A stretch of 32,936 nt of DNA from a virus (IMGVR_UViG_3300025132_000155:1-32936), one strand, 5' to 3'; numbered from the stretch's first letter, positions 18,391-31,556 are shown. Notes: generated from the letters alone by a model not told the origin. Numbers and translations are program-made.

Positions 18391-18668
18391 TTGCCACGGC
18401 AAAATTCGTTTGCCATTTGCCATTAATTTGGCAGAGTTTCGCCGCATTTAGCGAATAGAGGTATAGCTTGGTATAGCTTTGTTTACCGATGTTATACCAA
18501 GTGGCACCTCGCGGAATGGGGTTCGAGTCCCGTCCGCTCCGCCACTCGCCTTTATTTGCAAAGTGCGCTTAACCCCCTCGAAATACGGGGTTGCTGTTAT
18601 CGGGATTCGTCCAAATCATGTCATTTGGAGTGTCTCATTTGCCATTTCATTTGCCATTAAACGGCAAA
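18391..18668 (+). other. attP: Phage attachment site (attP) with tRNA 3'-end core and flanking arm repeats
   Basis: The core at 18518-18544 reads as a tRNA T-loop (TTCGAGT, 18522-18528), acceptor 3' strand (18534-18540), discriminator G and CCA, without any 5' tRNA half upstream. The identical 11-mer TTTGCCATTAA lies at 18416-18426 and 18650-18660. Each copy has another TTTGCCA just before it (18409-18415, 18638-18644), and an ACGGCAAA in inverted sense lies nearby at 18396-18403 and 18661-18668. The distances from repeat to core are 92 and 94 bases. With the integrase gene starting at 18729, this is the layout of a lambda-type attP with arm-type sites on both sides. A hairpin AACCCC/GGGGTT (18571-18592) lies between core and right arm. 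The interval otherwise lacks genes. Confidence 0.8.
18460..18501 (+). repeat. Iteron cluster 1, between left arm and attP core
   Basis: Two perfect tandem copies of GGTATAGCTT (18460-18479) run into CTTTGTTTACC, and an inverted copy TATACCAAG (18493-18501) mirrors CTTGGTATA (18467-18475). The 20 bases 18463-18482 recur with 18/20 and 17/20 identity on the opposite strand at 30652-30671 and 31522-31541. The position is where excisionase/Cox-type or IHF-type sites sit in other attP regions. The period of 10 bp, one helical turn, fits cooperative binding of one protein on one DNA face. Confidence 0.75.
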
Positions 18669-18728
18669 CGGGTGTCTCAGCGACCTCCTTTCAGCAGGGT
18701 TTTTGGACAAACCAAATAAGGACGAACC

Positions 18729-20126
18729 ATGAGAAAATCGACGCCGCAACCGGCGGCAAAAGGAAGTAAGCAGCACAAGAAGAACTGGACTAAAACCTGG
18801 GACGCAAACGTGCATTATAGGCACAATGCTGCCGGAGAGATCAGTTTTGCGACCCGGACCTACAACAGGGGCACCAGACACTACCGGGTCTTACAGGCAC
18901 GGACGTTTGAGGCAGCACGCCGGGAGGCGATGGCAGCGCAGGACGAGGCAGAGAACCTGCCCCAAGTTCGTGACATCCCGACTGTAAGGGAATACTGGGA
19001 GGAGAGAGTCAAACCTGCCATTAAACGTGGCGACCAGAGTCAGCGAACGATTTTTGGGTATTTGCAGAACGTGGAGCAGATCCTGCACGGCAATCAGGCA
19101 GCAAAGGGCAGGCGACTCCGCAATGAGCAGGGCAAGCTCGCTAAGAAGGGAGACGGGGCGTGCCCTAAGCACATTCTCAACAAGCGCATAGACTATCTGG
19201 ACGAGGAAGACTGCGCGGACTGGTTTAACAACGCATTTCTCAACCCTTACCGCTTCAAACCGGTCAACAACCAGTGGATCGTCTGGCGCATCCTGTTTAA
19301 GCTCGCCATCAGGGATGGGTTTCGCACCAAGATGCCAGATTGGTGTATCGACAAGAAAAAGGCACGGGGGCGCGACAACAGGTATGTGGTCAACGTGCGC
19401 GGAGAGAGCCGCAAGCTGGAGGTGATGGACCGGCACCAACTCCTTGAGGTGATTGAGGAGATCAAGCGCAACGGTCAGAAACTGGACGATCGGGCAGAGG
19501 ACGTAGCAAACGTGAACCTGCTGGTGGCGACTACCGGGATGAGGACGTGTGAGCTGCTGGCGCTACGTTGGCAGGACATTGATTTTGAGAACCGGGTTGC
19601 AACCCTTGAAGGAAGACTGAAGAGCAACCGGGACACCGTGGACTACATCGACCTGAACCCGTGGGCAATTAAGGCGCTACTCCGCCTGAAGGCGTGTGGA
19701 CACACCCGGGTCATTGAGAATGACCGAAACGGCAACGAGCGCACCTACCGCATCTTCAGGGGCACGGTGACCGAGGAGAAGACAGAGCAGGGGACTATCC
19801 GACTACGGAAAAGCAATCCCTGTCTGCGCCCCTCTGATTACGTATCTCCGTTTAAGTCCATAGACCGGGCATTTGCCAACGCTTGCAAGCGTCTTGGGTA
19901 TGAACCGCAGTCACCGCATAAGCTCCGGCACTTCTTTGCCACGGAGTGCGCAGAGCAGGGAGATAGCTGGGCAGTCATTGCGCAGCACCTAGGGCACTCA
20001 GATGGCGGCGCATTGGCCGCGAAGACGTATTCCCATGTCAGGAGGGGTCACGTTGCCGAAAGGGCGTCACAGTGGGATCTGGAGCGATCTGAGGAAAAAC
20101 CTGTCGCCAAAGCACGGGTTTCCTAG
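18729..20126 (+). CDS. int: Tyrosine recombinase / phage integrase
   Basis: A 465-residue site-specific recombinase that joins attP to the host tRNA attB. Catalytic residues are visible: Arg272 in TTGMRTCELLALRWQDID, Lys near 298 (EGRLKSNRDTV), His397-x-x-Arg400 in SPHKLRHFFATE, His423 in AQHLGHSDG and the nucleophile Tyr434 in KTYSHV. The N-terminal basic region (KGSKQHKKNW) and residues 80-220 would be the arm-binding and core-binding domains. ATG 18729 follows an aagga site (18719-18723) at normal spacing. It lies 185 bases from the attP core. All active residues are present, so it should be functional. Confidence 0.95.
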   Translation: MRKSTPQPAAKGSKQHKKNWTKTWDANVHYRHNAAGEISFATRTYNRGTRHYRVLQARTFEAARREAMAAQDEAENLPQVRDIPTVREYWEERVKPAIKRGDQSQRTIFGYLQNVEQILHGNQAAKGRRLRNEQGKLAKKGDGACPKHILNKRIDYLDEEDCADWFNNAFLNPYRFKPVNNQWIVWRILFKLAIRDGFRTKMPDWCIDKKKARGRDNRYVVNVRGESRKLEVMDRHQLLEVIEEIKRNGQKLDDRAEDVANVNLLVATTGMRTCELLALRWQDIDFENRVATLEGRLKSNRDTVDYIDLNPWAIKALLRLKACGHTRVIENDRNGNERTYRIFRGTVTEEKTEQGTIRLRKSNPCLRPSDYVSPFKSIDRAFANACKRLGYEPQSPHKLRHFFATECAEQGDSWAVIAQHLGHSDGGALAAKTYSHVRRGHVAERASQWDLERSEEKPVAKARVS

Positions 20127-20154
20127 TGGAATTAAGGAACATCGAAAAAACTTA

Positions 20155-20198
20155 GCACATTGGGCGTGTTTCTCTTGCGAGGAGTGCGCCCAATGTGC
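20155..20198 (+). terminator. 12-bp perfect hairpin behind the integrase
   Basis: The arms GCACATTGGGCG (20155-20166) and its exact complement (20187-20198) enclose a 20-base loop that contains a further CTC/GAG mini-stem. It begins 29 bases after the integrase stop codon. No U-tract follows, so termination would be weak or factor-dependent. It may stabilise the int transcript or act in retroregulation similar to lambda sib (inference). Confidence 0.45.
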
Positions 20199-20214
20199 AT
20201 AGTGATTGTGTTGA

Positions 20215-20229
20215 CCGGGACAGTCCCGG
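20215..20229. promoter_or_regulatory. Short GC-rich palindrome before the early ORFs
   Basis: CCGGGA (20215-20220) and TCCCGG (20224-20229) form a palindrome with a 3-base spacer, 22 bases before the next start codon. It overlaps a TTGACC hexamer (20211-20216) that could be a -35 box, but no good -10 follows at 16-18 bases. It may be an operator or a small terminator stem; it could also be chance. Confidence 0.25.
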
Positions 20230-20250
20230 GCGACATCACACTACAAAATA

Positions 20251-20466
20251 ATGAATACACCATACGTCACAGTAACAGTGGAAACCACTACCGTTAGCTT
20301 CACTAAGAATGACAACGGCACTTACAGCATTACCTACGTCGATACAGATGCTGAAAGGCATAGCATTTTCTCGGAATACGATTGCACGCTCACACAAAAA
20401 AAAGCGCGAAGGTGCTTAGGTGCTTGGATTGCTAAACCGAACGCAACTGTTAGTCGCAGCAACTAA
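20251..20466 (+). CDS. Small hypothetical early protein
   Basis: A 71-residue protein, Thr/Val-rich in its N-terminal half (VTVTVETTTVSFTKNDNGTY, alternating strands) and then KKARRCLGAWIAK. It resembles a small two-layer alpha/beta or Arc-like fold but no family is recognised. It is the first ORF rightward of the integrase, 23 bases before the next gene. No ribosome binding site is evident. It is probably part of the accessory (moron-like or anti-host) cluster that ends at the terminator near 21.8 kb. Confidence 0.5.
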   Translation: MNTPYVTVTVETTTVSFTKNDNGTYSITYVDTDAERHSIFSEYDCTLTQKKARRCLGAWIAKPNATVSRSN

Positions 20467-20489
20467 ACCCACCCAGAAAGGACGAACTA

Positions 20490-21212
20490 ATGAACAGACC
20501 AAAATGGACACACAATGTCGGTCAGAACGCTGACTGGAGCTACGAGGCGCATCACTACGGTGTCGGACACCCGAACGGCAACAATGGCGACTGGTATATT
20601 ATTGAGGGCGAAGAGGAGGGCGACCCAAACTACTGGGTAGTGCAAAGGTTTCGCCCCCTTGACGATCCGGGCGGAGGTGAGACAAAGCACGTTGCTAAGT
20701 TCGACGATTATGAAGACGCCCGGGAAAAGGTTGAGGATTTGTGGTGGGAGCGAGCTTTGCGGGACCACGATGACGATGCTGTTTATTTGTATTACGTAGA
20801 TTCAGAATACATTGAAGTGTTTGACTCTGTGGAGGACCGCAATGCAGAAATCCGCTCGTGGGGCAGCAGACCTGTTTTGTCTTGTGAGATTGACGATGCG
20901 GACGAATTGCAACGGATGCTAGGGAGCTTCAGGTTTGTTGTGCCACGCATTCCCAACCAGTTTTGCGAAAAGCAGTATAAGAGCTACCTCAATTGGTTAG
21001 CTACTTCTGACTGGTCGTATCACCTTGACGATGCAGGAGAGGACGGCACGGGCATTAAGAGTATTCTTTGGGAAACTGATGATCTTGCTGATCTTGACGT
21101 GCTCAAGCTGCTTGCATTCAATCACGCAAGGTTGATGGCAGTGATTCCTCCCGAGAGGAAAGAGGAGTTTGAGAATTTCTACTACGCGCTTTCAGCAAAG
21201 CACAATTTCTGA
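20490..21212 (+). CDS. Acidic hypothetical early protein (240 aa)
   Basis: A strongly acidic protein, preceded by a good site (aaagga). Asp/Glu are concentrated in IIEGEEEGDPNYW, DDYEDAREKVEDLWW, LRDHDDDAVYLYYVDSEYIE, EIDDADELQRM and LDDAGEDGTG. Many Trp and Tyr residues suggest a folded protein. There is no enzyme motif, signal peptide or membrane segment. Early location beside the integrase, high negative charge and an HTH gene at the end of the cluster recall DNA-mimic anti-restriction or anti-CRISPR proteins, but that is inference only; it could also be a replication or lysogeny accessory protein. Confidence 0.6.
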   Translation: MNRPKWTHNVGQNADWSYEAHHYGVGHPNGNNGDWYIIEGEEEGDPNYWVVQRFRPLDDPGGGETKHVAKFDDYEDAREKVEDLWWERALRDHDDDAVYLYYVDSEYIEVFDSVEDRNAEIRSWGSRPVLSCEIDDADELQRMLGSFRFVVPRIPNQFCEKQYKSYLNWLATSDWSYHLDDAGEDGTGIKSILWETDDLADLDVLKLLAFNHARLMAVIPPERKEEFENFYYALSAKHNF

Positions 21213-21231
21213 TGAATAAACAGGCGATGAA

Positions 21232-21564
21232 ATGAGTTTACTGAATTACAAACAGCAAGCAAACGAGCCTGACTGGTTCAACGAAAACGACGATCACTTT
21301 TACCACTCAGTCACTAGCGGATCTTCACCAAGCAACGAGTGGTATGAGTTTGAAAGCGAGTCTGACGCACTAGATTTCGCGTTGTCTTTTGAAAGCCAAA
21401 GCGTGATTGACCAGTTTGAGGTAGCGGCTTTTGACAGTAAGGATCGATGGTTTCACCATGAAGACATAGCAAAGCACGCAGACGGGTGGGAGCCTGCTGA
21501 AGCTGTTCCGGGGGCAAACCCGGCGTCCTTTGCAGACCTTGCCCAAGCACAAAGTCGTTTTTAA
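21232..21564 (+). CDS. Acidic hypothetical early protein (110 aa)
   Basis: A second acidic protein (NEPDWFNENDDHFYHSV, EWYEFESESDALDFALSFES, FHHEDIAKHADGWEPAEAV) 19 bases after the 240-residue one. The aromatic/acidic pattern resembles the style of its neighbour, so the two may act together. No known domain was recognised. The following HTH gene starts one base after its stop when the GTG at 21566 is used. Length and charge would fit an anti-defence protein, without direct evidence. Confidence 0.55.
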   Translation: MSLLNYKQQANEPDWFNENDDHFYHSVTSGSSPSNEWYEFESESDALDFALSFESQSVIDQFEVAAFDSKDRWFHHEDIAKHADGWEPAEAVPGANPASFADLAQAQSRF

Positions 21565-21565
21565 C

Positions 21566-21751
21566 GTGGAGTTTTCAAAGCAATTACAGGCAGAAAAAGA
21601 CCGGCTTGGGTTTTCAATTGCAGACCTTTCTCAGTGTCTGGAGATTGCACCGCGCACAGTTCAGCACTGGTTGAACGGGGATCGTGTTCCGTCTGCGGTG
21701 TGTCAGGAGGGGGCGCTGGCACGACTTAAAAAGTGCCGCAAGCGCACCTAG
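21566..21751 (+). CDS. Small HTH (XRE-like) DNA-binding protein, possible autoregulator
   Basis: From GTG 21566 the product is 61 residues; a TTG at 21530 would add 12 and overlap the previous gene. The body is one HTH domain: FSKQLQAEKDRLGFSIADLS, then QCLEIAPRTVQHWLNGDRVP (recognition helix RTVQHWLNG) and a basic tail ALARLKKCRKRT. It is nearly nothing but HTH, as in Aca-type autorepressors and small phage Cro proteins. It is the last gene of the acidic ORF cluster and is followed directly by a strong terminator, so it probably controls that operon. Target and partner are unknown. Confidence 0.65.
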   Translation: MEFSKQLQAEKDRLGFSIADLSQCLEIAPRTVQHWLNGDRVPSAVCQEGALARLKKCRKRT

Positions 21752-21777
21752 AAACCATCTGCTCCCGCCCCTCAGAA

Positions 21778-21809
21778 TGCTCCTTGCCGTTGGCAGGGGG
21801 CATTTTTTT
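21778..21809 (+). terminator. Strong intrinsic terminator
   Basis: An 11-bp stem (TGCTCCTTGCC 21778-21788 with GGCAGGGGGCA 21792-21802, two G-U pairs) with a 3-base loop is followed by seven T residues (21803-21809). This is the clearest rho-independent terminator in the window. It closes the early cluster 20251-21751 and separates it from the excisionase-like gene. Confidence 0.9.
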
Positions 21810-21845
21810 ATTGCTGACTTTCCGATTCGCCCGGAAATCTGACGG

Positions 21846-22049
21846 ATGCCAATCGCAATACCCAGACCTGATGAGCGCCCCGATTTCTACACCTTGCGAG
21901 AATTTGCCGCAGTCTTTGGAAGAGAGCGACGATGGAGTAAGCGACTGGTTGACAACGGCACCATCAAAGCAATTAAGCTCACTGGAACTGGCGAGCAACT
22001 TTGGATTGCGTCAGACCAAATTGAATGCGCTCTTATCCAGAGCAATTAA
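21846..22049 (+). CDS. Excisionase-like / MerR-type HTH protein
   Basis: A 67-residue protein with a single winged HTH: FYTLREFAAVFGRERRWSKR, LVDNGTIKAIKLTGTGEQLW and IASDQIECAL follow the pattern of excisionase (HTH_17) domains: helix, turn, recognition helix, GxI wing and a final helix. Xis proteins bind attP beside the core and turn integrase towards excision. It lies about 1.7 kb from the integrase stop, after the terminator, and its 3' end overlaps the convergent RHH gene by 4 bases. It is one of two candidates for binding the iterons in attP. No good Shine-Dalgarno site is seen before ATG 21846. Confidence 0.65.
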   Translation: MPIAIPRPDERPDFYTLREFAAVFGRERRWSKRLVDNGTIKAIKLTGTGEQLWIASDQIECALIQSN

Positions 22050-22306
22050 TCGTTTTCCGATTCCAAGTCGTGACCCAGGTCGCGCAAACCTTTGATGATG
22101 AGACTGCGCATGATAGTAGCCTTGCTGTCTGAATCTCCTGACTCTGCACGGCGGGTTTGCTCCTCGCGCAGAGCTTTGTCTAGCGCAGCATCAAACTTGA
22201 TTGTGCCTTGATACTTTTTAAGCTCACCCTCGTTCTTTTTTGGGCGACCACGCACGTTCTTTGCAGTGCGACGATAGCCGGTGGGTAACTTTTTTTTGCC
22301 AGCCAT
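22046..22306 (-). CDS. Ribbon-helix-helix-like DNA-binding protein
   Basis: An 86-residue protein. The basic N-terminal arm (KKKLPTGYRRTAKNVRGRPK) precedes a plausible ribbon strand (YQGTIKFDAALDKALREEQT) and second helix (KATIMRSLIIKGLRDLG), the order of Arc/CopG-type regulators. An AT-hook-like RGRPKK (residues 19-24) is also visible. It is transcribed opposite to the recombination operon that begins at 22493 and may repress it and itself. Because RHH dimers often bind tandem repeats, it is a third possible ligand of the dispersed iterons, though none lie next to this gene. Confidence 0.6.
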   Translation of the reverse strand: MAGKKKLPTGYRRTAKNVRGRPKKNEGELKKYQGTIKFDAALDKALREEQTRRAESGDSDSKATIMRSLIIKGLRDLGHDLESEND

Positions 22307-22492
22307 GGGTTAAGGACCTTCCAAAGATATTTGACGAAACCTGTGCGAGCAAGGGTTTTTGGACACGCTGTCTTAGTATTGCTCAGGATTCACAAACGAT
22401 TCTGAACAACGTGCGAATCGAATGTTGATCGAAAGATATTGCTGAATAGGGGATTCCTTCAAAACCTTAGGGACCTTTAAGAACATCCAAAA
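22307..22492. promoter_or_regulatory. Divergent intergenic control region
   Basis: A 186-base non-coding stretch between the leftward RHH gene and the rightward recombination operon. It contains an inverted pair CGATTC / GAATCG (around 22398-22420) and two related words, aaagatatttg near 22324 and gaaagatattg near 22431. No convincing -35/-10 pair could be fixed. By layout it should hold both promoters and the operator of the RHH protein. Confidence 0.35.
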
Positions 22493-22723
22493 ATGGTGAG
22501 GACGAACGAACAAAAAGAAAAAAGGGCGCTAGGACGGCAGAAGGTCTGCGGACGGCGCAATCCGGGGCGTAAGGCAAGAACGGGAGAAAACTGGGCGCTG
22601 AACCTGCACCAAGTCGAACGAGCGTGCGACCAATTCTGGCAGGAACGCGGAATGCCTGAGCCACAGCACACCATTCAGATGACAAGCACTGGTCACTACT
22701 GGTCTACCCCAACAGCAATCTAA
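22493..22723 (+). CDS. Small basic protein, first gene of recombination operon
   Basis: A 76-residue protein. The N-terminal half is very basic (MVRTNEQKEKRALGRQKVC, GRRNPGRKARTG) and the C-terminal half contains LHQVERACDQFWQERGMPEP. No family is recognised. It precedes the RecT-like gene by 3 bases. The basic region suggests nucleic-acid binding. The alternative frames here are shadows. A role in recombination or replication is inferred from operon position only. Confidence 0.5.
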   Translation: MVRTNEQKEKRALGRQKVCGRRNPGRKARTGENWALNLHQVERACDQFWQERGMPEPQHTIQMTSTGHYWSTPTAI

Positions 22724-22726
22724 CCT

Positions 22727-23653
22727 ATGAGCGAAACAACAAACATTACTACGACCACGACAGACGCCAACGCGCTTTCTGTTTTTACGGACTCCAACTC
22801 TTTCGAGCTGGCACAACGCGCTGGCAAAATGCTGGCAGCGTCAGACTTAGTGCCTCCTCAATTCAAGCAAATACCAAACGCAGTTTTGGCGTTAAATATT
22901 GCGCAACGTATGGGCGCGGATGTTTTTGCCGTGATGCAGTCACTTTACATTGTGCATGGTCGCCCTGCATGGAGTTCGCAATTTCTAATATCAATGGTCA
23001 ATGCCTCCGGGCGTTACAGTCCGCTGCAATTTAAGATGAGCGGACAGGGCGATAGTAAAATGTGCGTTGCATACGCAAAGCACTTGGAAACCGGCGACAT
23101 TGTTGAAGGACCAGAGGTGTCTATTGAAATGGCAAAAAAGGAAGGATGGTATGGAAAGAACGGGTCTAAGTGGCAGACGCTTCCAGATTTGATGCTAAGG
23201 TATCGGGCGGCAGGATTCTTTGCCCGTCTTTATGTCCCGGATCTCTGTCTTGGCATCCGAACAATGGAAGAAGAGACAGACATTAAAAGGAATGAGCGCG
23301 AAACGGCTCCTATTTTTACTCCTCCTGTGCTGCAAAACTCAGAAGGCACGCAAAACGTGTTTAACGGCAAAGATTCAATAATTATTGACGCAGAAGAAAC
23401 CGCAGACCAAGACGAGCCTGATCCCCGCGCAGATGCGTTGGCAGATGTTTTGCAACTGGTCACGGAATCGGATGCTGACGCCACACAAATCGAACAAGTG
23501 CTTCGGGCGCGTCAAATCTTAGGCGAAACAGGAACCATCCCGCGCCTGGGGGAAGCAAAATTGCGCGACATTGCTCGTGAGTTTGCCTCAATTGAAGCAG
23601 AGGCACTTGCTATTGGCGAACAACCGCTCCCAACAAACTTGGGCACCCTGTAA
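22727..23653 (+). CDS. recT: RecT-family single-strand annealing protein
   Basis: A 308-residue recombinase. The signature region MQSLYIVHGRPAWSSQFLIS followed by MVNASGRYSPLQF, then EGPEVSIEMAKKEGWYGKNG, KWQTLPDLMLRYRAAGFFAR and YVPDLCLGIRTMEE, is typical of RecT/phage recombinase annealing proteins. They coat single-stranded DNA and anneal it to homologous strands in replication forks. The C-terminal 100 residues are acidic and variable (IIDAEETADQDEPDPRADAL). It is followed by a RecE-like nuclease gene, forming the standard two-gene recombination pair used for replication, repair or circularisation. Confidence 0.85.
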   Translation: MSETTNITTTTTDANALSVFTDSNSFELAQRAGKMLAASDLVPPQFKQIPNAVLALNIAQRMGADVFAVMQSLYIVHGRPAWSSQFLISMVNASGRYSPLQFKMSGQGDSKMCVAYAKHLETGDIVEGPEVSIEMAKKEGWYGKNGSKWQTLPDLMLRYRAAGFFARLYVPDLCLGIRTMEEETDIKRNERETAPIFTPPVLQNSEGTQNVFNGKDSIIIDAEETADQDEPDPRADALADVLQLVTESDADATQIEQVLRARQILGETGTIPRLGEAKLRDIAREFASIEAEALAIGEQPLPTNLGTL

Positions 23654-23775
23654 CCCTTTTCTCCCTCCCGCGACGGTCCTTGCACAAACGTGTCAGCAAG
23701 CATGAGTTAATTCGTTGGCAATTGATTTTGCTGATGAAGCACTCATTGGACCAAGCGGGAGGGAGATCATCTAAG

Positions 23776-24579
23776 ATGAGCGCAGAATATCACGCACGAA
23801 AAGCAACCCCCGCCAATCGGCACGCACCGGTGTCAAAGTCTTTGCTTTGGGAATTTTCGCAAAGTCCTTACAAGTGGGCGCACAAAGAACCAACTTCGCC
23901 AAGCGCAGCAATGCGCCTTGGAACGGTTGCGCATTTGATGGTGCTTGAACCGGATAAGGTTGAAGCAGCGGTCGCGTTAAGTCCGTTTGATTCATTTCGC
24001 ACAAAAGAAGCGCGGGAATGGCGGGCAGAGCAAGAGGACTCAGGAAAAATCGTAATGACCTCGCAAGAGACAAAGATTCTTGAGGGAGTTAAGTCAGCGT
24101 CATCTCTTGCTATTGCCGACTGCCTATCAGGCAACACCGGTTACGAAGTCGAGGTTGAAGTGTCAGCCGTTTTTAATGATGTCGAATTGTGCGGGTTGAT
24201 CGACCTTGTTGGTCCGAACGGCGACACTCTTTGGGATCTAAAAACAACAAGTAGCATTGGTGACGAACGTGCTTTGACGCGCTTGATATATGACCGAGGA
24301 TATGATGTGCAGGCAGCGTTGTATGCGGACTTGTTTGCTTACCACAACGACCGGCAAGATAACCCCCCAGAGTTTGGGTTTATTTTTGTTGAGACAAGCG
24401 AGCCATACGAGGCGACTTGGATAAAGCTGTCCGACAATAGTCTTACGCATGGACGTGCTCGATATTTGCCAATGGTCGAACGGTGGAAGCAATTGCGTGA
24501 TGTGCCGCTAGGGGATCTGCCCGGTGGGGTCAAGAAAGGCACCGTTATTGACCCGCCTGCGTGGGTGCGCATGGACTAA
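23776..24579 (+). CDS. RecE-like PD-(D/E)xK exonuclease
   Basis: A 267-residue nuclease from ATG 23776, preceded by a purine-rich gggagggag; an upstream in-frame start at 23680 looks spurious. RecB-like nuclease motifs occur in order: GTVAH (His53), GLIDLVG (Asp143), LWDLKTT (Asp154-x-Lys156) and VQAALYADL (Gln179). These match exodeoxyribonuclease VIII/RecE-type (DUF3799-like) enzymes that resect double-stranded ends 5' to 3' and hand single strands to RecT. All catalytic residues are present. It stands 122 bases after recT and just ahead of the overlapping Cys-rich and replication-like ORFs. Confidence 0.85.
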   Translation: MSAEYHARKATPANRHAPVSKSLLWEFSQSPYKWAHKEPTSPSAAMRLGTVAHLMVLEPDKVEAAVALSPFDSFRTKEAREWRAEQEDSGKIVMTSQETKILEGVKSASSLAIADCLSGNTGYEVEVEVSAVFNDVELCGLIDLVGPNGDTLWDLKTTSSIGDERALTRLIYDRGYDVQAALYADLFAYHNDRQDNPPEFGFIFVETSEPYEATWIKLSDNSLTHGRARYLPMVERWKQLRDVPLGDLPGGVKKGTVIDPPAWVRMD

Positions 24580-24605
24580 GTGACGTAAAAACAAAGGAGT
24601 GCCCC

Positions 24606-25268
24606 GTGCAAGAATGTGTAAAGACTATGAGTGCAAGCAGAGACAAGCCTGCTACCGATACCTCGCGCATCCCTCATACATCCAAACAGAACAAGGAAAG
24701 TTTGAAGAGCGGCAAAGCTGGTTTCCCAGAAGTCCCCGACCAGACAACCCCCGCAAAAAATGCACGCAATTCTGGGACGCAACCATCGGAGGTGGAAAGT
24801 GCCACTACCCGGGCACTATCAGAAGTGTTGAATGGGCAGATAACGTCAATAGAAAGTGTGCCGCCAACAAAGCGGATTAAGTGGGACGAAACTGGGTTTA
24901 CAGGAATCCTGCACATGGACCGGATCCGTTGGCGCAAGACGTTCCCGGCAGTAAAAATTAACGCAGAACTGCGGATCATGCACGACTGGTTGCTGGCAAA
25001 CCCGCGCAAGCGTAAGAAAAACTACTACCGCTTCATTAGTTCGTGGTTGTCCCGGTGTCAGGACGTAGGCGGATCGTCAGGCGTGCGAACAAAACCTGCT
25101 CATTGCTCTGGCGTTTACAAATACGCGCCCTTAACCAAAGAGCAAATAAAGGACGCAACAAAAGAGAATGAGCGCCCAGGCGGCAATTGTGACAAAGTCG
25201 AAGCGCTGCGCAAATTGCTGCGCCATGAGATCACTGAGGACGAGTATAACGCCATCGTTCACGATTAG
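24606..25268 (+). CDS. Putative replication-associated protein (start uncertain)
   Basis: The frame is open from 24561; GTG 24606 has aaaggag (24593-24599) at 6 bases and would give 220 residues. The N-terminal 80 or so residues are Ser/Thr/Pro/Lys-rich and lie over the Cys-rich ORF in another frame, so they may not be real coding sequence. The convincing part is KINAELRIMHDWLLANPRKR plus KKNYYRFISSWLSRCQD, a helical module common at the ends of phage replication/primosome-type proteins, followed by a Lys/Glu-rich tail. It ends in a 3-base overlap with the convergent - strand operon. Function in DNA replication or loading is inferred. Confidence 0.5.
   Translation: MQECVKTMSASRDKPATDTSRIPHTSKQNKESLKSGKAGFPEVPDQTTPAKNARNSGTQPSEVESATTRALSEVLNGQITSIESVPPTKRIKWDETGFTGILHMDRIRWRKTFPAVKINAELRIMHDWLLANPRKRKKNYYRFISSWLSRCQDVGGSSGVRTKPAHCSGVYKYAPLTKEQIKDATKENERPGGNCDKVEALRKLLRHEITEDEYNAIVHD
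24614..24880 (+). CDS. Small Cys-rich protein overlapping the next gene in another frame
   Basis: An 88-residue product from ATG 24614 (GTG 24599 is possible). Cys2, Cys7 and Cys13 (MCKDYECKQRQACYRY), then EERQSWF and Cys50-TQFW, follow a pattern, C-x4-C-x5-C-xRY ... QSxF ... C-xxFW, that I recall from short phage proteins probably binding zinc or iron. The last 30 residues after FW look less conserved. If it is real, the N-terminal part of the 24606 frame is either a true dual-coding region or not translated. It sits behind the RecE-like gene with a Shine-Dalgarno site 14 bases upstream. Confidence 0.45.
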   Translation: MCKDYECKQRQACYRYLAHPSYIQTEQGKFEERQSWFPRSPRPDNPRKKCTQFWDATIGGGKCHYPGTIRSVEWADNVNRKCAANKAD

Positions 25269-25795
25269 CTCACCTGCTCAGGCGCGTATCTGTCGATCCA
25301 CTCAACCCACTTGTCATCTCCGACCGTCTCAAGGTCTTCCAATTCTTTAGCGGTCAGCAAATCTTTTTGTGAGCCAGTGCTGATTACCAAGGCAGATCCG
25401 CCAAAGGTCTTGGTTGACCGGTAGGCAATCACGCCGTGCCCTTCTGGGAATTCTGCCAAACGCTTCTGAGCGCTGCTTTTGGCGCGATACTTAACGTAGC
25501 TCTGCGACAATGCTGCGGTTTGCCCCGGCTCTTCCTGAGAGGTCCACGCTGGTCCTGCAAGCTCCTCCAAGATCTCTGCGTGCGTGTAGGTGTCCATGCC
25601 TTGAAATGCCTCTGGCGTCTCTCCATCCCATTTAAGAATCGTCTTTGTTCCATCGACCGACAAACGCAAACCTTCACGGCTTTCAAGCGCGTGGTCAATG
25701 TATGTGTTGCCAACTAGCTCTCCATCCTCGTAGATGTCTCCGCCAGTAATTGCTTGCAGGGTCATAACAACCCATTTTCTACTTTCAAAACTCAT
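25265..25795 (-). CDS. Hypothetical protein downstream of the lectin genes
   Basis: A 176-residue protein, last gene of the leftward operon, starting 4 bases after the lectin stop. The N-terminal part is beta-like (WVVMTLQAITGGDIYEDGEL, GLRLSVDGTKTILKWDG), the centre helical and the C-terminus acidic. No family is recognised. Co-location with two lectin-domain genes suggests a structural or adhesin-assembly role. Its TAA shares bases with the TAG of the rightward operon (25265-25268), so the two operons meet with no intergenic terminator. Confidence 0.55.
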   Translation of the reverse strand: MSFESRKWVVMTLQAITGGDIYEDGELVGNTYIDHALESREGLRLSVDGTKTILKWDGETPEAFQGMDTYTHAEILEELAGPAWTSQEEPGQTAALSQSYVKYRAKSSAQKRLAEFPEGHGVIAYRSTKTFGGSALVISTGSQKDLLTAKELEDLETVGDDKWVEWIDRYAPEQVS

Positions 25796-25799
25796 GTAA

Positions 25800-26912
25800 T
25801 TAAGGGGCGTCAGTTTGTATGTTTGCGCTTCCTTGCAGGGTTGCGGTGTGTCCGTTGACTTCTTTAAGAGACACGTTGTCTAAAAAGAACTCGCAAGCGG
25901 TTGACCGCTTAAATTCAAGGTTCGCATTGCTTCCTGAAGCGACAGTGATTAGCTCATAAGAGCCACTTGTCGTGTAAGCTGTTTGAGCTGCATTGATGTC
26001 TCTAGCGATAAGCGTGCCGCTGACAACCTGCAGGTCAAACGACAGCTTGTAAGCCTTGCCTGATGTCACTGATATGTTCTGGGTAATGCCAACAAACGTC
26101 CCGTCCGAAACAATGTGAGCCGATGGTGAACCAGCAGCATTCGTTGCTATTTCAGCTGTTTGTCCACCAGTGTTGGTTACGGTCCAACTGGTAAAGTCAC
26201 CTGTTTCGTAGTCACCATTAGTAACCAGCTCTGAACCTAGTCCCGGATTCGCTTGGTCAAAGAGCAGATTACTCGTCCCATCAGCCGCAGGCACTGTAGC
26301 ATCTCCCATCCTCCACCAGTGATCCAACCCGCTCAATCCGGTCAGGTCGCCAGGCTTTCCGCCGTTATAAAGATCGTTGACGATTCCCGTCTTGTCCCCG
26401 TCAAAGATGGCAAACTCGTCGATGCTACCATCAAAGAAATTGTTCCCTCCGCGGCCAATGCGAATCCCGGTCGTGTAAGAAAGCGTGCTGCCGCCGGTAA
26501 CGCTGGAATTTACCGCTACCTCTACGCCGTCGCAAAACAGTTTTGTAGCCGTAATGTCAGACGACACAAGAACGAGCCAATGGTGCCACGCGTTGTCCGA
26601 CTGCTGAGACGTCTCGTTCCAGAAACGATAGACGCCGCCAAGAAACAGCAGAGAACGGCCTTGGCTACCCCATCTAAAATAGAATGCCCCTCGATTGATG
26701 TCTCCGTGGTCAAAAAGAGCGTTTCTAGCCGCGCTTGAGCCGTCATCGCTTTTTGCCCAGAACGAATACGTCTTGGTTGCTAGGGTAGAATCCGCAGAGG
26801 AAGTAAGATTGTCGTCCGTTGCGTCAAACAGGACGCTCTTGGTAGACACGAACGAGCTTCCCAACCGAGGAGCTGAAGCGATGCCAGCAGAGATTCCTAA
26901 AGCAAGTGCCAT
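25800..26912 (-). CDS. LamG/ConA-like lectin-domain protein, paralog 2
   Basis: A 370-residue protein; the ATG at 26912 is chosen because it gives MALALGISAG as in the neighbouring paralog and lies 5 bases after that gene's stop, although the frame is open to 26948. The first 220 residues form a laminin-G/concanavalin-like fold: FDATDDNLTSS, KTYSFWAKSDDGS, NAWHHWLVLVSSD, LFCDGVEVAVNSSV and FDGSIDEFAIFDGDKTGIVN. A second beta-sandwich (GSELVTNGDYETGDFTSWTV ... CEFFLDNVSLKEVNG) resembles carbohydrate-binding modules. It would be a virion adhesin binding host-surface glycan, encoded with the lysis genes. Its C-terminal NIQTDAP nearly equals the paralog's TIQTDTP. Confidence 0.75.
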   Translation of the reverse strand: MALALGISAGIASAPRLGSSFVSTKSVLFDATDDNLTSSADSTLATKTYSFWAKSDDGSSAARNALFDHGDINRGAFYFRWGSQGRSLLFLGGVYRFWNETSQQSDNAWHHWLVLVSSDITATKLFCDGVEVAVNSSVTGGSTLSYTTGIRIGRGGNNFFDGSIDEFAIFDGDKTGIVNDLYNGGKPGDLTGLSGLDHWWRMGDATVPAADGTSNLLFDQANPGLGSELVTNGDYETGDFTSWTVTNTGGQTAEIATNAAGSPSAHIVSDGTFVGITQNISVTSGKAYKLSFDLQVVSGTLIARDINAAQTAYTTSGSYELITVASGSNANLEFKRSTACEFFLDNVSLKEVNGHTATLQGSANIQTDAP

Positions 26913-26916
26913 GTTT

Positions 26917-28077
26917 CTAAGGGGTATCTGTCTGAATGGTTGCGCCACTAATGGTGGCCGTTTTCCCGTTTAGCTGCTTAACTGAAATATTGTCGTAAAA
27001 AGTTGTCCCAGCGGTATTGTCTCCCGCTCTTAGATAGAGGTAAATGTTTGCAGTTGATGGTGCAAAAATAGTGTCAATCTTTCCGTTTGTGCGCGCAGGC
27101 ACTTGGTTGTTACCTCCGCCTGAAATATAGACTGCAGCGCCGATATCTGAGCCATCTCCAGAAATGTCCATCTGGATTTGGTAGGCGACTCCTGCGGTAA
27201 GCGATGGAACATTCAAGCGAACACCTTCATTACTTCCGTCCGTTGTAAGTTGCAATTGCCCGCCGGTTATTTGACGAGTTGTTGGCGAGCCATATGCAAA
27301 ATAATTTGAAACATTGCCAACCGGGTCTGTGCCGTCCGCTACGCCGTCAAAAGAACCATTAGCGATTAGTTCTGAGCCTAGGCTTGTGTCTACTTGGTCA
27401 AAGATGAAATTACTCGTCCCGTCTGGTGCAGGCAGTGTAGCGTCTCCCATGCGGTAGTAAGCCTGGAGGTTGCTGGACGAAACGTAAGCGCCCGAATTCT
27501 TTGTTAGGTCAGTAGGAACCCCTGCATTATATAGAGCAGCCACCTCGTCGCTAGTAAGCGCAGAACTCCACATGGCGAACTCATCAATCGACCCGTTCAT
27601 AAAATGAGCGGTAGATGAATGGCTCATTGCGCCTACAAAAATGTTACCGCTTGGGTTGCTTGCAGAGTTTTGCGTGTAGCTAAGCGTGTCTCTAGCTACA
27701 CCATCTAGATAATAAGTTGCCGTTCCCCCGTCCGCCACCATCGCTATGTGGTGCCATTGACCAACCGCAATGTAGGCACTCAAATCCGCTCCTGAGCCAA
27801 GGTTGTTGGCATTTTGAACTCCCATTGCCGCTTTGCTGCTAGAAAATCCGAGATAGAATCTCTTGCTGTTGTGTGTCCCGCAATTCTGGTTAGACGTGAA
27901 GTCATCCATGTTAACCCAGTAAGCCATCGTTGCATTGGTGTGGATGAAGTCAGGTTGAAACCCTGTGTCCACAACATCATCCGTCCCATCAAACGAAAGG
28001 CTCTTGGTGTTAGTAAACGGCGTTCCCAATCGCGGCGCTGATGACAGACCGGCAGAAATTCCTAAAGCGAGAGCCAT
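26917..28077 (-). CDS. LamG/ConA-like lectin-domain protein, paralog 1
   Basis: A 386-residue protein from ATG 28077 (MALALGISAGLSSAPRLG), 15 bases after the endolysin stop; the longer frame to 28392 would run through the endolysin gene and is rejected. Motifs: FDGTDDVVDTGF, ATMAYWVNMDDFTS, GQWHHIAMVADGG, YYLDGVARDTLSY, MNGSIDEFAMWSSALTSDEV and AALYNAG, a classic LamG_3 order. A second carbohydrate-binding-like domain follows (ELIANGSFDG ... NIYLYLRAGDNTAG). N-terminal and C-terminal ends are shared with paralog 2 while the middles diverge, indicating duplication followed by receptor-binding divergence. It is probably an exposed virion adhesin. Confidence 0.75.
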   Translation of the reverse strand: MALALGISAGLSSAPRLGTPFTNTKSLSFDGTDDVVDTGFQPDFIHTNATMAYWVNMDDFTSNQNCGTHNSKRFYLGFSSSKAAMGVQNANNLGSGADLSAYIAVGQWHHIAMVADGGTATYYLDGVARDTLSYTQNSASNPSGNIFVGAMSHSSTAHFMNGSIDEFAMWSSALTSDEVAALYNAGVPTDLTKNSGAYVSSSNLQAYYRMGDATLPAPDGTSNFIFDQVDTSLGSELIANGSFDGVADGTDPVGNVSNYFAYGSPTTRQITGGQLQLTTDGSNEGVRLNVPSLTAGVAYQIQMDISGDGSDIGAAVYISGGGNNQVPARTNGKIDTIFAPSTANIYLYLRAGDNTAGTTFYDNISVKQLNGKTATISGATIQTDTP

Positions 28078-28091
28078 GCAATTAAGATACG

Positions 28092-28523
28092 TTACCATGT
28101 CGCATTGCTGCCACGCGTATCTACGTGGCAAAACGTAGAGTATGCAGAAATGCCGCCAAGAAACGCTCCGGCTTTTCGCAGGTTTCGCAGTTGCAGAAAC
28201 GCTGCCTGGGGACTCATGCCTTTGACCTGAAAGTCTATTGCACAATTCTTCATGTGGTAGGAATGCTTCGCGCCTTTTACCCCTTTGCGATTGTAATCCG
28301 GTGAGCGGTAAATCGACGTTAGTGTGATCGGTTTTTTGATGTAGTGCCGCAGCGCATCTAGGGTGTTGATGGTCGGGACAAGCGCGTCCCACATCTCTTC
28401 AGGCGGCAGGGAATTCTTGACTCCATTACGCACTGCATCTGCGTAACTGCAAATTTCTTCAGGCTCGAAATAACGAAGGCGCAGTGCCCGCAAAAAAGAG
28501 GTGTAGGAATCAGCGTTGCTCAT
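28092..28523 (-). CDS. Peptidase M15-type endolysin
   Basis: A 143-residue lysin that would cleave peptide crosslinks of peptidoglycan at the end of infection. M15_3-type motifs: SIYRSPDYN (residues 70-78), AKHSYHMKNCAIDFQV with zinc ligands His90 and Asp97, and CHVDTRG with His133 and Asp135. It overlaps the upstream membrane/coiled-coil gene by 14 bases. There is no signal peptide, so release needs a holin, for which a candidate lies at 29603-29800 in the same orientation. Length is typical for single-domain M15 phage lysins. Confidence 0.8.
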   Translation of the reverse strand: MSNADSYTSFLRALRLRYFEPEEICSYADAVRNGVKNSLPPEEMWDALVPTINTLDALRHYIKKPITLTSIYRSPDYNRKGVKGAKHSYHMKNCAIDFQVKGMSPQAAFLQLRNLRKAGAFLGGISAYSTFCHVDTRGSNATW

Positions 28524-28737
28524 TGTCTTGGAGGATGGCAGCGATTTGGTCGTGCAGCTTTTCTCTGTCCTGCTCGCAGGCGACTAACCGCCGCCGCACG
28601 TCAGTCAGTTGAGCATCGTAATTGTTTTCTACCTTCTGAGTTAGCACGTCATTGCGCTTGTTTAGAAACCAAACGGCGACACATAACGCCGCAATCAGTC
28701 CTCCGTGTTCAACTAGATTGGTCAAAGTGGGATCCAC
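28510..28737 (-). CDS. Membrane-anchored coiled-coil protein, possible inner-membrane spanin
   Basis: A 75-residue protein from GTG 28737. One N-terminal transmembrane helix (GGLIAALCVAVWFLNKR) precedes a charged coiled coil (NDVLTQKVENNYDAQLTDVR, LVACEQDREKLHDQIAAILQ). This is the design of i-spanins (Rz) and of some holin-associated proteins. It immediately precedes and overlaps the endolysin gene. The lipoprotein at 29800-29949 could be its outer-membrane partner. No GTG-associated Shine-Dalgarno site is seen. Confidence 0.55.
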   Translation of the reverse strand: MDPTLTNLVEHGGLIAALCVAVWFLNKRNDVLTQKVENNYDAQLTDVRRRLVACEQDREKLHDQIAAILQDNEQR

Positions 28738-29000
28738 GGAATAATCCTACCGCAAAGTGTCTCACGCCCTTGTTTCGCAGTGCGCGGGCACACCATTACA
28801 GGCGTCTTAAAGATAACAAAACATCGACTGGTTTCTTTTCTTCATCGTATTTAATGATGTTCCAAAAAAGTGCTTGTGCCGCAACAATTTACGCTCAGCA
28901 TGACCAATGCTAATTCTCGTGATTACCGCTTGCTGACTGACTTGTGCAGCATGGTCAACATGAGGACTCAGCCTATACACACACAAACACGCTCTTGCCC

Positions 29001-29432
29001 ATGAAGCTCTCTGATTCCCGACGATTTGCAGACCCCCACGATTTTAAGAGTCCGTCCGCCGTGACAATCACCGTCAACCCTGATCCCGAAGCTGACGAGT
29101 ATTGTGTTAATGTGGAGAGCAACATTGAGAGGCGCTCGACCATCGCGGCATTGCTAAAAGCAGTTGCCAAAATGATGCCTTATCTAAACCCGCGCACCGC
29201 CATGTCCGCTTACACTGCAAGCGGCTGCGGTTCTAAGGAAAAGAAAATGATTGCGAACACCGTGATTCAAAATCCGTTGCCTAAAAACACTGAGCCTGTC
29301 TCCATCACGGTCAACATTCACCCTCTCAAAAGCGGACAGGCAGTCCATCAACTGTTCTCTACGCTCCCAGCAGCAACGACGAAGAAGCTATTGAACGCGA
29401 TGCACGAACCATTGATGGAAAAGGTCAAGTAG
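29001..29432 (+). CDS. Hypothetical + strand protein inside the leftward lysis region
   Basis: A 143-residue protein from ATG 29001 (GTG 28944 is an alternative). It has two similar halves: SAVTITVNPDPEADEYCV ... TIAALLKAVAKMMP and VSITVNIHPLKSGQAVHQLF ... TTKKLLNAMHEPL, each a Val/Thr strand VTITVNxxP followed by a helix, suggesting an internal duplication. No family is recognised. It converges with the small - strand gene ending at 29425 (8-base overlap). The 260 bases before it contain no gene and presumably hold its promoter. Opposite polarity to its surroundings suggests an independently expressed lysogeny or accessory gene. Confidence 0.5.
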   Translation: MKLSDSRRFADPHDFKSPSAVTITVNPDPEADEYCVNVESNIERRSTIAALLKAVAKMMPYLNPRTAMSAYTASGCGSKEKKMIANTVIQNPLPKNTEPVSITVNIHPLKSGQAVHQLFSTLPAATTKKLLNAMHEPLMEKVK

Positions 29433-29613
29433 ACTGCAAACCGCCTGCGCAATCACTAATTAATCGTCGCAGCAGCTTTACCCGTTTTAGATTCTCGCCT
29501 CGCAACGATTGCTCAAGAGCTTCTAGCTCCTGCTGAATCACCATCTCCCTCGATACTTGACGGATCTGCCCCCAGTAGGGACGCACGTCTATGGTCGCAC
29601 CGTTAGCTGCCAC
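29425..29613 (-). CDS. Small hypothetical coiled-coil protein
   Basis: A 62-residue protein from GTG 29613, overlapping the holin stop by 11 bases. The central region MVIQQELEALEQSLRGENLK predicts a short coiled coil and the C-terminus is RVKLLRRLISDCAGG. There is no membrane segment. Tight coupling to the holin-like gene suggests membership of the lysis cassette. No family was recognised. Confidence 0.45.
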   Translation of the reverse strand: MAANGATIDVRPYWGQIRQVSREMVIQQELEALEQSLRGENLKRVKLLRRLISDCAGGLQST

Positions 29614-29800
29614 TCAGTGAAAGCGGTTTTCCAGTCAATCCCCGCAGGATAATAATAACGCCGCCCAGGATCGCGCCTATTACGTTCCAGTTGTTGTTGA
29701 GAAACTCTCTGCTCTCAGGAAACTTAGCGCCCACCACACTCACGACACTGGTCAGCAATCCCAACCAGATCGTCTTACTCTTCAGCGGTTTCTTTGCCAT
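29603..29800 (-). CDS. Holin-like small membrane protein
   Basis: A 65-residue protein with a basic N-terminus (MAKKPLKSKT), a first hydrophobic helix (IWLGLLTSVVSVVGA), a polar turn (KFPESREFLNNNWN) and a second hydrophobic helix (VIGAILGGVIIILRGLTG). Two transmembrane segments with this turn are characteristic of a widespread family of small phage holins, which open the inner membrane for the endolysin. Its ATG shares a base with the TAA of the upstream lipoprotein gene. Confidence 0.7.
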   Translation of the reverse strand: MAKKPLKSKTIWLGLLTSVVSVVGAKFPESREFLNNNWNVIGAILGGVIIILRGLTGKPLSLSGS

Positions 29801-29949
29801 TACTGAAACAGATCAAAAAGGTTGCCAGCGTTTACGTCCGCCTCTGTCTCCAGAGATACCTTGAATCCAGCGCAGCTACTCAGTGCCAGTGTCACGCCGG
29901 TCGCCACTATCAGCGCCGCCCAAAGAATGGTGTTGTTCATGCCCATCAT
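29800..29949 (-). CDS. Small lipoprotein, possible outer-membrane spanin
   Basis: A 49-residue product from ATG 29949 (29946 and 29940 are also possible starts; the frame is open to 30012). MNNTILWAALIVATGVTLAL leads to the lipobox LSSC, giving a mature peptide of about 26 residues starting CAGFKVSLETEADVNAG. It overlaps the 3' end of the HTH gene in another frame by 74 bases and ends TAATG onto the holin. A tiny mature lipoprotein beside lysis genes fits an Rz1-type o-spanin or a superinfection-exclusion lipoprotein; evidence cannot separate these. Confidence 0.55.
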   Translation of the reverse strand: MMGMNNTILWAALIVATGVTLALSSCAGFKVSLETEADVNAGNLFDLFQ

Positions 29950-30460
29950 TAGAGCATGACCTGTCCGGTGCTTTGGCTTCATCTTTCCGTGCAGGAATTG
30001 CAAACCTTTCAATTAGCTCTGCGCGAACGACGTTTGGGTCGCAAAACACTTTTCCTCCAATTTTCATAAACGAGAAGTATCCCCTTGCCCGCCAATCGTG
30101 CCAAGTTCGTGAAGAAGGACCGGAAGAATCTGGAAACAGGTACATGCGGGTCGCCCCAAAACTAAGGAATTTCCCCGGTTCAATCCCCGGCGGGAAAGCG
30201 ACTTCCTCAGTGTCTTTCTCTTCTAAGTCGATGCCACAATCCCTATTTTTAGCGATCTCTTCTGCGCTGATGACCGCGTCATTTACCCAATCATACCGCT
30301 TTCTCCACCTCGATAGAGTCCGAGCGTCAATGCCAACTAATGGACACGCCTTGCTCTTTGAAAGTCCCCGACGAAGCTTCTGACAAAGCACCTCAATTGT
30401 CTCAAAGCTTAGTTTGCTGTATCCGTTTTCGCCCATCCTATCCATGTCTTCATAATTCAT
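29876..30460 (-). CDS. Double-HTH DNA-binding regulator
   Basis: From ATG 30460 the product has 194 residues (GTG 30496 would give 206). The N-terminal HTH, YSKLSFETIEVLCQKLRRGL and KACPLVGIDARTLSRWRKRY, resembles terminase-small/transposase-type homeodomain folds. The C-terminal one, TRMYLFPDSSGPSSRTWHDW with ARGYFSFMKIGGKVFCDPNV, has the winged excisionase-like pattern (recognition helix, G-wing, final helix VRAELIERF). Two DNA-binding units in one chain would suit tandem or spaced repeats. The gene lies about 110-220 bases downstream of iteron cluster 2, so it may control itself, the lysis operon and attP. No Shine-Dalgarno site is clear. Regulator identity is inference. Confidence 0.6.
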   Translation of the reverse strand: MNYEDMDRMGENGYSKLSFETIEVLCQKLRRGLSKSKACPLVGIDARTLSRWRKRYDWVNDAVISAEEIAKNRDCGIDLEEKDTEEVAFPPGIEPGKFLSFGATRMYLFPDSSGPSSRTWHDWRARGYFSFMKIGGKVFCDPNVVRAELIERFAIPARKDEAKAPDRSCSNDGHEQHHSLGGADSGDRRDTGTE

Positions 30461-30623
30461 CCAATCAATCAAAACAGAGAGGGAAGCGAGCAGCACGCCA
30501 GTGATGCGCTGCTAGTGAGCACAGCGAACGGTAAGCTCTTCCTTTCTTAGCGCACGCTATCCCGCTCTCTCCCTCCAAACCAAAATTATAAAGGGTATCG
30601 TCAAGACAGAAAGATATTTCTGC

Positions 30624-30680
30624 TTGGTATACCTTTGTATACCAAAGGGGGACAAACCCATACCAAGCTATACAAAGCTA
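30624..30680 (-). repeat. Iteron cluster 2 upstream of the HTH regulator
   Basis: It contains an inverted repeat TTGGTATAC (30624-30632) / GTATACCAA (30637-30645) with a 4-base spacer, then tandem 10-mers ATACCAAGCT and ATACAAAGCT (30660-30679). Bases 30652-30671, read on the - strand, match the attP cluster at 18/20. It belongs to the same dispersed repeat family as clusters 1 and 3. Confidence 0.75.
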
Positions 30681-30686
30681 TGACAT
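30657..30686 (-). promoter_or_regulatory. Putative leftward promoter overlapped by iterons
   Basis: Reading leftward, ATGTCA (30681-30686) could be a -35 and TATGGG (30657-30662) a -10, 18 bases apart. The iterons fill the spacer, so a protein bound there would block or reorganise RNA polymerase. The arrangement parallels the promoter at 31527-31556. The -10 is a poor match, so confidence is low when taken alone. Confidence 0.4.
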
Positions 30687-31185
30687 TACGACACCAGTCG
30701 AAGCACTCGACACGTCATTAAGTCATGTCGATCCGTCGCCCCAGAATCGACTCATATGCCTTTCTCAGCAGTGCTACGCGCAACATTGCATACGCTCTCC
30801 ACTCCCATGCTGCGACACTCTCACGACCATCCTCACACGATCATAGGGAAGGTGAGTAGGAACGGTTCCCCGGGACGAGCTAAGCCTTGAAACAATTAGC
30901 CAGGGCGCGGAATCCACACAATATCTGGTATGGCAGGGACGCTAAAACACACGCATTTGCCCGAGTCTCTCAAACCCCTTGTTTTATAGGGCGAGAATAA
31001 TCGCGGAGTCCGCATTTTGTAGATTGTTGGAAGTTATAGGGGGGGAGGGGGTCAGCGGCTGGCGAGATTTGCTCACCAAAACCGGTCTACTAACCTTTGA
31101 AAAAATCCGGCAAAGGGCGGGAGTCTAGCGTGCGCTAAAGCGTGTGCTAAAGCTACCAAACCAAACCAGATCCAATTAGATCAGA
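30687..31185. other. Non-coding control region
   Basis: About 500 bases without a convincing gene. Visible features are a G-tract (seven G, A, five G at about 31039-31051), a tandem 12-mer CGTGCGCTAAAG / CGTGTGCTAAAG (31129-31152) and a pyrimidine-rich, gene-poor composition around 30740-30840. It may hold a replication origin, packaging site or untranslated RNA; nothing decisive is seen. Confidence 0.4.
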
Positions 31186-31470
31186 TTACTGTTGGGACTT
31201 GGCGTAGAAATCCTCTGTCAGTTTCTCGACTTCCTTTTGGAGCGACTGGATGTGGAGGTTTTGCCGGACATCGTCTGGGAGTGCGCCTAGTTTGCCTACA
31301 GGCCAGTCTCTGACGAAGATTGCGTGTTTTTCGACATCCTTGGAGATCATCTGGATTTGAAAATCATTATGCTGAACTTTGGAGGAGAGGTTTGACGCCC
31401 ACCAGACGATAGCGGCAGCTTGCGCTGCGAGGGTGAGGATAAGTTTGGTATGTTGGGAAAGGGTATTCAT
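31186..31470 (-). CDS. Small membrane protein with coiled coil
   Basis: A 94-residue protein: N-terminal cytoplasmic tail, one transmembrane helix (LILTLAAQAAAIVWWASNL), then a hydrophilic region ending in a coiled coil (NLHIQSLQKEVEKLTEDFYA). The layout resembles i-spanins and other small phage membrane proteins. Its ATG lies about 50 bases downstream of the predicted iteron-covered promoter, so it is likely under the control of the iteron-binding factor. It could be a second spanin, a superinfection-exclusion protein or a lysis modulator. Confidence 0.55.
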   Translation of the reverse strand: MNTLSQHTKLILTLAAQAAAIVWWASNLSSKVQHNDFQIQMISKDVEKHAIFVRDWPVGKLGALPDDVRQNLHIQSLQKEVEKLTEDFYAKSQQ

Positions 31471-31521
31471 GGTGAGGATACTTTGATGCCTGGTGTCCTA
31501 TGGTTTGAAAAAGTTACCCTT

Positions 31522-31556
31522 ACAAAGCTATACCAAAGCATACCAAAGTATGACAA
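31522..31556 (-). promoter_or_regulatory. Leftward promoter with iteron cluster 3 in the spacer
   Basis: On the - strand, TTGTCA (31551-31556; 5/6 of the -35 consensus) and TATAGC (31527-31532) are 18 bases apart. Tandem 10-mers TACAAAGCTA, TACCAAAGCA and TACCAAAGTA (31521-31550 on the + strand) occupy the promoter. Bases 31522-31541 match the attP cluster at 17/20. The expected transcript start near 31520 gives a leader of about 50 bases to the 31470 ATG. Confidence 0.6.

Follow-up and report, generated by a model that had tools for sequence, protein, structure and literature searches.

Phased direct repeats at attP and at two distant noncoding regions of a phage genome, with a probable role as operators of a recombination directionality factor

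In phage lambda, the Xis sites X1, X1.5 and X2 lie between the left arm and the core. The use of one protein both as excisionase and as gene regulator is already known for phages P2 and 186. According to PMC7498355, the Cox protein of P2, HP1 and WPhi is a single HTH protein that acts as excisionase and regulator. Apl of phage 186 binds direct repeats at 10-11 bp spacing, of which att has five and pR-pL has seven. The same source describes Apl binding as cooperative, bending DNA and requiring about three adjacent operators for efficiency, and it presents head-to-tail binding on tandem repeats one turn apart as general among recombination directionality factors (RDFs) (PMC7498355). RdfS of ICEMlSymR7A binds attP as well as its own promoter, which it represses, and forms a head-to-tail oligomer (PMC11963761).

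The locus described here lies in a complete IMG/VR virus record (G000, IMGVR_UViG_3300025132_000155) of 32,936 bp, the whole of which is called the window. As in 186, direct repeats one helical turn (10-11 bp) apart occur at attP and in separate, distant regulatory regions. An earlier reading of the sequence had proposed one repeat family shared by attP and two distant sites and had named P2 Cox and 186 Apl as cases of the same logic; the scans bear out the shared family, and its geometry is that of known dual-role directionality factors. The second Apl set lies between facing lytic and lysogenic promoters, whereas the window's further arrays stand upstream of a leftward operon (P1) and in the g31186-terS gap (P2); the unit sequence and the candidate protein also differ from those of 186. 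The dual role proposed below resembles that of P2/HP1/WPhi Cox, but the window has no convincing Cox homologue (PHROG 575 at E 0.18 only). Lambda Xis likewise has phased sites within the arm, with the arm sites on one side and the core on the other; binding of distant promoters through the same repeats is not described for it in the material compared, whereas two of the window's arrays are distant. RdfS sites have no consensus motif, in contrast to the strong motif of the window.

Gene layout and attP anatomy

Both termini of the record fall inside the terminase-portal region, so a portion of that region is absent from it; in the relative G008, about 6.4 kb separates the small genes after terS from the portal part present in the window. 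The window carries a head/tail cluster on the + strand, the gene for a 2,013-aa protein, attP and a tyrosine integrase. An early rightward block contains RecT-like and exonuclease-like genes, and a leftward block encodes an M15 peptidase (E 3e-17), LamG proteins and a product with a weak holin-like match. The name terS is given from position, and the gene is best regarded as putative. The features around attP and P2 are as follows.

18409 to 18424, + strand: two overlapping left arm-type repeats TTTGCCATT (18409, 18416), assigned a role by their position relative to integrase and core
18519 to 18546, + strand: attP core, which agrees at 28/28 positions with a tRNA-Asp 3' end (anticodon gtc) from Gammaproteobacteria
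18638 to 18668, + strand: right arm-type repeats TTTGCCATT at 18638 and 18650, with an inverted copy carrying one mismatch at 18660-18668
18729 to 20126, + strand: tyrosine integrase (PF00589, E 4.3e-18; phrog_1, E 1.2e-28)
31186 to 31470, - strand: g31186, 94 aa, the leftward gene after P2, with a weak spanin-like match
31762 to 32292, + strand: terS-like gene to the right of P2, aligned with relatives (HTH_23 at E 0.064 only)

The location assigned to attP in the sequence-only reading is upheld by the tyrosine integrase that adjoins it (start 18729), by arm-type repeats flanking the core on both sides, and by the core itself, which matches the tRNA-Asp(gtc) 3' end of Aeromonas and Photobacterium. 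The repeat array does lie, as had been stated, between the left arm repeats and the core, about 230 bp before the int start. Rfam returned no family at gathering scores; weak miRNA and tmRNA matches on attP were dismissed as chance, or as the inverted-repeat look of the array.

A repeat family in three noncoding clusters

The 20-mer ATAGCTTGGTATAGCTTTGT is found at 20/20 at 18463-18482 (+), at 18/20 at both 30652-30671 (-) and 30662-30681 (-), and at 17/20 at 31522-31541 (-), in agreement with the cluster positions and the 18/20 and 17/20 identities first reported. With up to three mismatches allowed, its matches across the 32,936 bp fall in the three clusters only, against 0.00 in dinucleotide shuffles; the full-window motif scan gave no equally good matches spread through coding regions. 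GGTATASC occurs in 4 places in the window, every one inside the clusters (0.38 matches expected). The original statement that nothing similar exists elsewhere holds at this three-mismatch level, but one extra single copy, GTATAGCTTGGT, is present at 18303-18314 within the ORF at 18172-18390. The relative G003 spells the same codons (EKYSLVP) as AAGTATAGTCTTGTGCC; because of this different spelling the copy is likely coincidental, and it was rejected as a functional site.

Leave-one-cluster-out models, built without the units of the omitted cluster, gave the same picture. The omitted cluster's best site beat all sites outside the clusters when a 20-mer matrix was used, and the omitted cluster likewise outranked the rest of the window under a phased 8-mer array model, for which unit boundaries had been chosen by eye ahead of the scan. 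In an all-against-all comparison of 2,079 noncoding 20-mers at a threshold of at least 17/20, the repeat family links the three places; the other pairs were few, isolated two-place matches. Chance similarity of AT-rich repeats, for which one might cite pattern matches away from any integrase in the unrelated viral contigs L011 and L014, is refuted within the window by the 0.00 expectation and the array-model scan; with recurrence at the G003 attP (below) also against it, chance is a negligible explanation.

The clusters had been described as repeats of about 10 bp. They are real, but the unit is better described as about 8 bp, KGTATASC, in direct-repeat arrays at 10-11 bp spacing. The strand of single units is ambiguous because GGTATACC is palindromic. 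All three arrays are noncoding.

18460 to 18498, + strand: attP array, GGTATAGC at 18460, GGTATAGC at 18470, TGTTTACC at 18480 and GTTATACC at 18491, with spacings of 10, 10 and 11
30626 to 30684, - strand: P1 array, first units GTCATAGC 30684-30677, TGTATAGC 30674-30667 and GGTATGGG 30664-30657; remaining units (TGTCCCCC 30654-30647), GGTATACA 30643-30636 and GGTATACC 30633-30626
31527 to 31554, - strand: P2 array, GTCATACT 31554-31547, GGTATGCT 31544-31537 and GGTATAGC 31534-31527

The attP array is the top 4-unit array in the window, even with its own units removed from the model. P1 has 5-6 units, upstream of g29876 and the leftward operon that this gene begins; repeats are present there as claimed, and the array, at 30626-30684, runs beyond the 30624-30680 initially assigned to it. 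P2 has 3 units between g31186 and terS. Both arrays lie about 12 kb from attP.

Other elements share the noncoding regions. A conserved block at window positions 30985-31125 (GAAGTTAT...AGGGGGGGAGGGGG...AACCGGTC...AAAAA) has 49 invariant columns over six sequences, and every aligned relative has it, whether an integrase is present or not (L105 290-420; L109 2930-3060, - strand; L112 5965-6090; L114 2650-2800; L119 3310-3440); it lies within the stretch where GC skew changes sign and is possibly a replication origin or packaging element. A second repeat family, about 12 bp long and of GCGTGTGCTTGA type, occurs near a conserved G-rich block in most relatives, integrase-less ones included (window 31127-31150; L105 633-682; L109 2880-2925; L114 ~2812-2865). 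A perfect 13-bp inverted repeat, TTAGCGCACGCTA / TAGCGTGCGCTAA, is placed around the P1 noncoding region at 30547-30559 and 31126-31138. Upstream of g29876, a conserved stem-forming stretch AGCGAGCAGCACG(C)CAGTGATGCGCTGCTAGTGAG (window 30485-30535; in G011, L112 4260-4285) is a possible attenuator or terminator. A distant relative (L016, IMGVR_UViG_3300025084_000379) has five adjacent arrays in one noncoding region, 13940-14155, with differing 10-bp repeats: AACCAGTTCC, AGGTGGAATA, GTGGAGCAAT, AGCTATACAA and AGCTGTAGTA.

Arrays in relatives and in unrelated genomes

Relatives were found via the capsid protein (G003, 89%; G008, 66%; G009, 59%; G011, 58%; and others); none of their contigs spans both attP and the terS side. 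Integrase homologues sought in viral contigs and genome contigs included a single close relative, the G003 fragment, and no host prophage; scans with g29876 and g21232, as well as with the C-terminal part of the 2,013-aa protein, yielded no further relatives, and a PDB sequence search gave no useful match. The N-terminal part of the G003 integrase stands at 41% to that of the window. At the G003 attP the tRNA-like end and the arm repeats differ from those of the window, and the same place holds GGTATACC-N3-GGTATACC-N2-GGTTAACC, at spacings of 11 and 10 bp. This array scores 28.2 under the window-trained model; the rest of the contig reaches no more than 13.2, and 100 shuffles no more than 16.6. 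It is the contig's only array. G008, whose contig reaches the terS side only, has a syntenic copy upstream of terS with flanks kept (TACTAGANNNGTAGTAGWTGTCATA) and two good units. Its score of 15.5 is the best in the contig, yet within the shuffle range for a contig of similar size, so that synteny carries the argument. The relatives support the arrays piecewise, G003 at attP and G008 at the terS side.

Relatives without a PF00589 match (G009, 38.6 kb; G019, 40.8 kb; G011) gave background scores only in the stretches scanned, and none of the integrase-less relatives that cover the terS-upstream region shows repeats there; since some relative records are fragments, the integrase-less label is reasonably firm only for the long G009 and G019, both classed as linear records. 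The G011 homologue of g31186 has no array upstream. These comparisons bear on P2 (and P1) as pac/cos packaging-recognition sites or replication-origin iterons with only incidental similarity to attP. About 210 bp separate P2 from the terS-like gene, P1 sits in a long noncoding stretch near the GC-skew sign change, and the terS-side copy is kept in G008, all of which would suit such elements. Relatives with a terS homologue nevertheless have no such array upstream, and both the sharing with attP and the recurrence at the G003 attP would be left unexplained. Terminase or origin iterons were rejected as the main explanation and are very unlikely.

The syntenic copy in G008 also informs the nature of P1 and P2, where the repeats had been placed in an 18-bp spacer between the -35 and -10 boxes of leftward promoters. 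The strings exist, but judged by consensus they are not credible promoters: a promoter scan detected none at either array, and its yield did not exceed that of shuffles. In G008, TGTCAT and two units are kept, whereas the third unit, whose TATAGC had been taken as the -10 box, reads TGTAAGTA. Since the ORF left of the G008 array is on the + strand and the boxes are unsupported, "leftward promoter" is replaced here by "regulatory region". It might still be argued from the retention of TGTCAT in P1, P2 and G008, and from the leftward genes that both window arrays face, that these are sigma-70 or phage-specific promoters with the repeats as promoter elements as such. Against this, the phased arrays vary in unit number, unlike a fixed promoter element, and the window has no recognisable RNA polymerase gene; with the scan empty and the -10 candidate lost in G008, the promoter reading of the spacer was rejected as highly improbable.

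An exact pattern scan of IMG/VR returned nine contigs from about five lineages. In the unrelated phage L013, TATAGTTTTG-TATAGCTTGG-TATAGC separates left arm-type repeats (TTGTCACA..., with copies at 13861 and 14046) from an integrase at 14099; this integrase is cut by the contig end and has no useful similarity to that of the window. In L012, a tyrosine recombinase gene is followed, about 180 bp past its 3' end, by a 3.5-unit array. Both contigs were picked by the pattern itself, and the independent evidence they offer is integrase proximity; that the motif adjoins integrases in two of about five lineages is, among contigs selected in this way, suggestive. A pattern scan of 257 Gb of bacterial genomes gave two matches, one in a Subsaximicrobium contig and one in a Moraxella contig, and the motif is accordingly not widespread; no integrase was recognised by eye among the ORFs beside it in either contig. 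A blastn search of the repeat against plasmids and phages stayed at chance level. In the Moraxella bovoculi 237 contig (L124, ~1400-1540), the same 10-mer forms three phased units upstream of a gene for an outer-membrane-type protein; an inverted copy lies ~60-100 bp away, and no integrase was recognised nearby.

Candidate ligands and a proposed role

Two gene products in the window are candidates for binding the arrays.

21846 to 22049, + strand: g21846, a 67-aa HTH protein (HTH_17, E 0.02; TIGR01764 excisionase family, E 0.039; PHROG 575, Cox-like, E 0.18)
29876 to 30460, - strand: g29876, which opens the leftward operon downstream of P1 (HTH_23, E 6.6e-5; HTH_17, E 0.012 at 116-139)

The matches of g21846 in three libraries agree in type and are all weak, those to HTH_17 and TIGR01764 falling below curated cut-offs; they point, weakly, to this protein as the best candidate for an array-binding directionality factor. 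g29876 combines an N-terminal HTH with a C-terminal HTH_17-like domain and may be regarded as a second, less likely candidate; its C-terminal domain has a match in a small protein from G009, an integrase-less relative. AlphaFold models from single sequences (pLDDT 47 for g21846, 37 for g29876) were unusable for fold search.

The three clusters are probably operator arrays for one phage-encoded RDF, an Xis/Cox/Apl-like winged-helix protein that would also act on transcription. The sequence analysis establishes the arrays with their phasing and specificity, the anatomy of attP and a piecewise presence in relatives. From an array geometry and unit number like those of Apl and other RDFs we infer an RDF that would drive excision at attP and modulate transcription at P1 and P2; a single ligand for all three arrays and the sign of its transcriptional effect belong to the same proposal. 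At attP, protomers would line up head to tail on the four units that separate the left arm sites from the core; once bound, the protein would bend the DNA and promote excision by the neighbouring tyrosine integrase. The same protein would fill the 3-6 phased units of the other arrays, repressing or modulating transcription of the leftward (lysis/fibre) operon at P1 and of the g31186/terS intergenic region at P2. Excision and leftward transcription would thereby be linked.

An unlikely alternative, and one that deserves weighing, is that the ligand is a regulator other than an excisionase, either g29876 autoregulating from P1 or the RHH-like g22046, with the attP sites controlling the nearby integrase promoter. 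P1 is directly followed by g29876, whose product has the HTH_17-like domain, g22046 looks RHH-like by eye, and ribbon-helix-helix (RHH) proteins also bind phased direct repeats. The attP array, however, occupies the excisionase position, flanked by the left arm repeats and the core; a relative that has neither integrase nor arrays also carries the C-terminal domain of g29876; and g22046 has no convincing family match.

An RDF acting at all three arrays would differ from the P2/186 arrangement in its second targets. The divergent g22046/g22493 region is the only switch-like place seen in the window, and it holds no array of the kind expected at a lytic/lysogenic promoter pair; unlike the P2/186 case, P1 and P2 lie outside any recognisable lysogeny switch. 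A broader proposal is tentative and open to doubt: instead of a lysogeny switch, the leftward (lysis/fibre) operon and the terS region might be what the RDF couples to excision. The phage would belong to a temperate branch within an otherwise apparently integrase-less group, its arrays gained or lost with the integrase, and the 10-mer would recur at attachment sites of unrelated phages. If the RDF reading is true, the logic of excisionase as regulator would extend beyond the P2/186 group to a group of uncultured phages, the motif could be used to find RDF targets, and RDF control would be seen to include the terS region as well as a lysis-type leftward operon.
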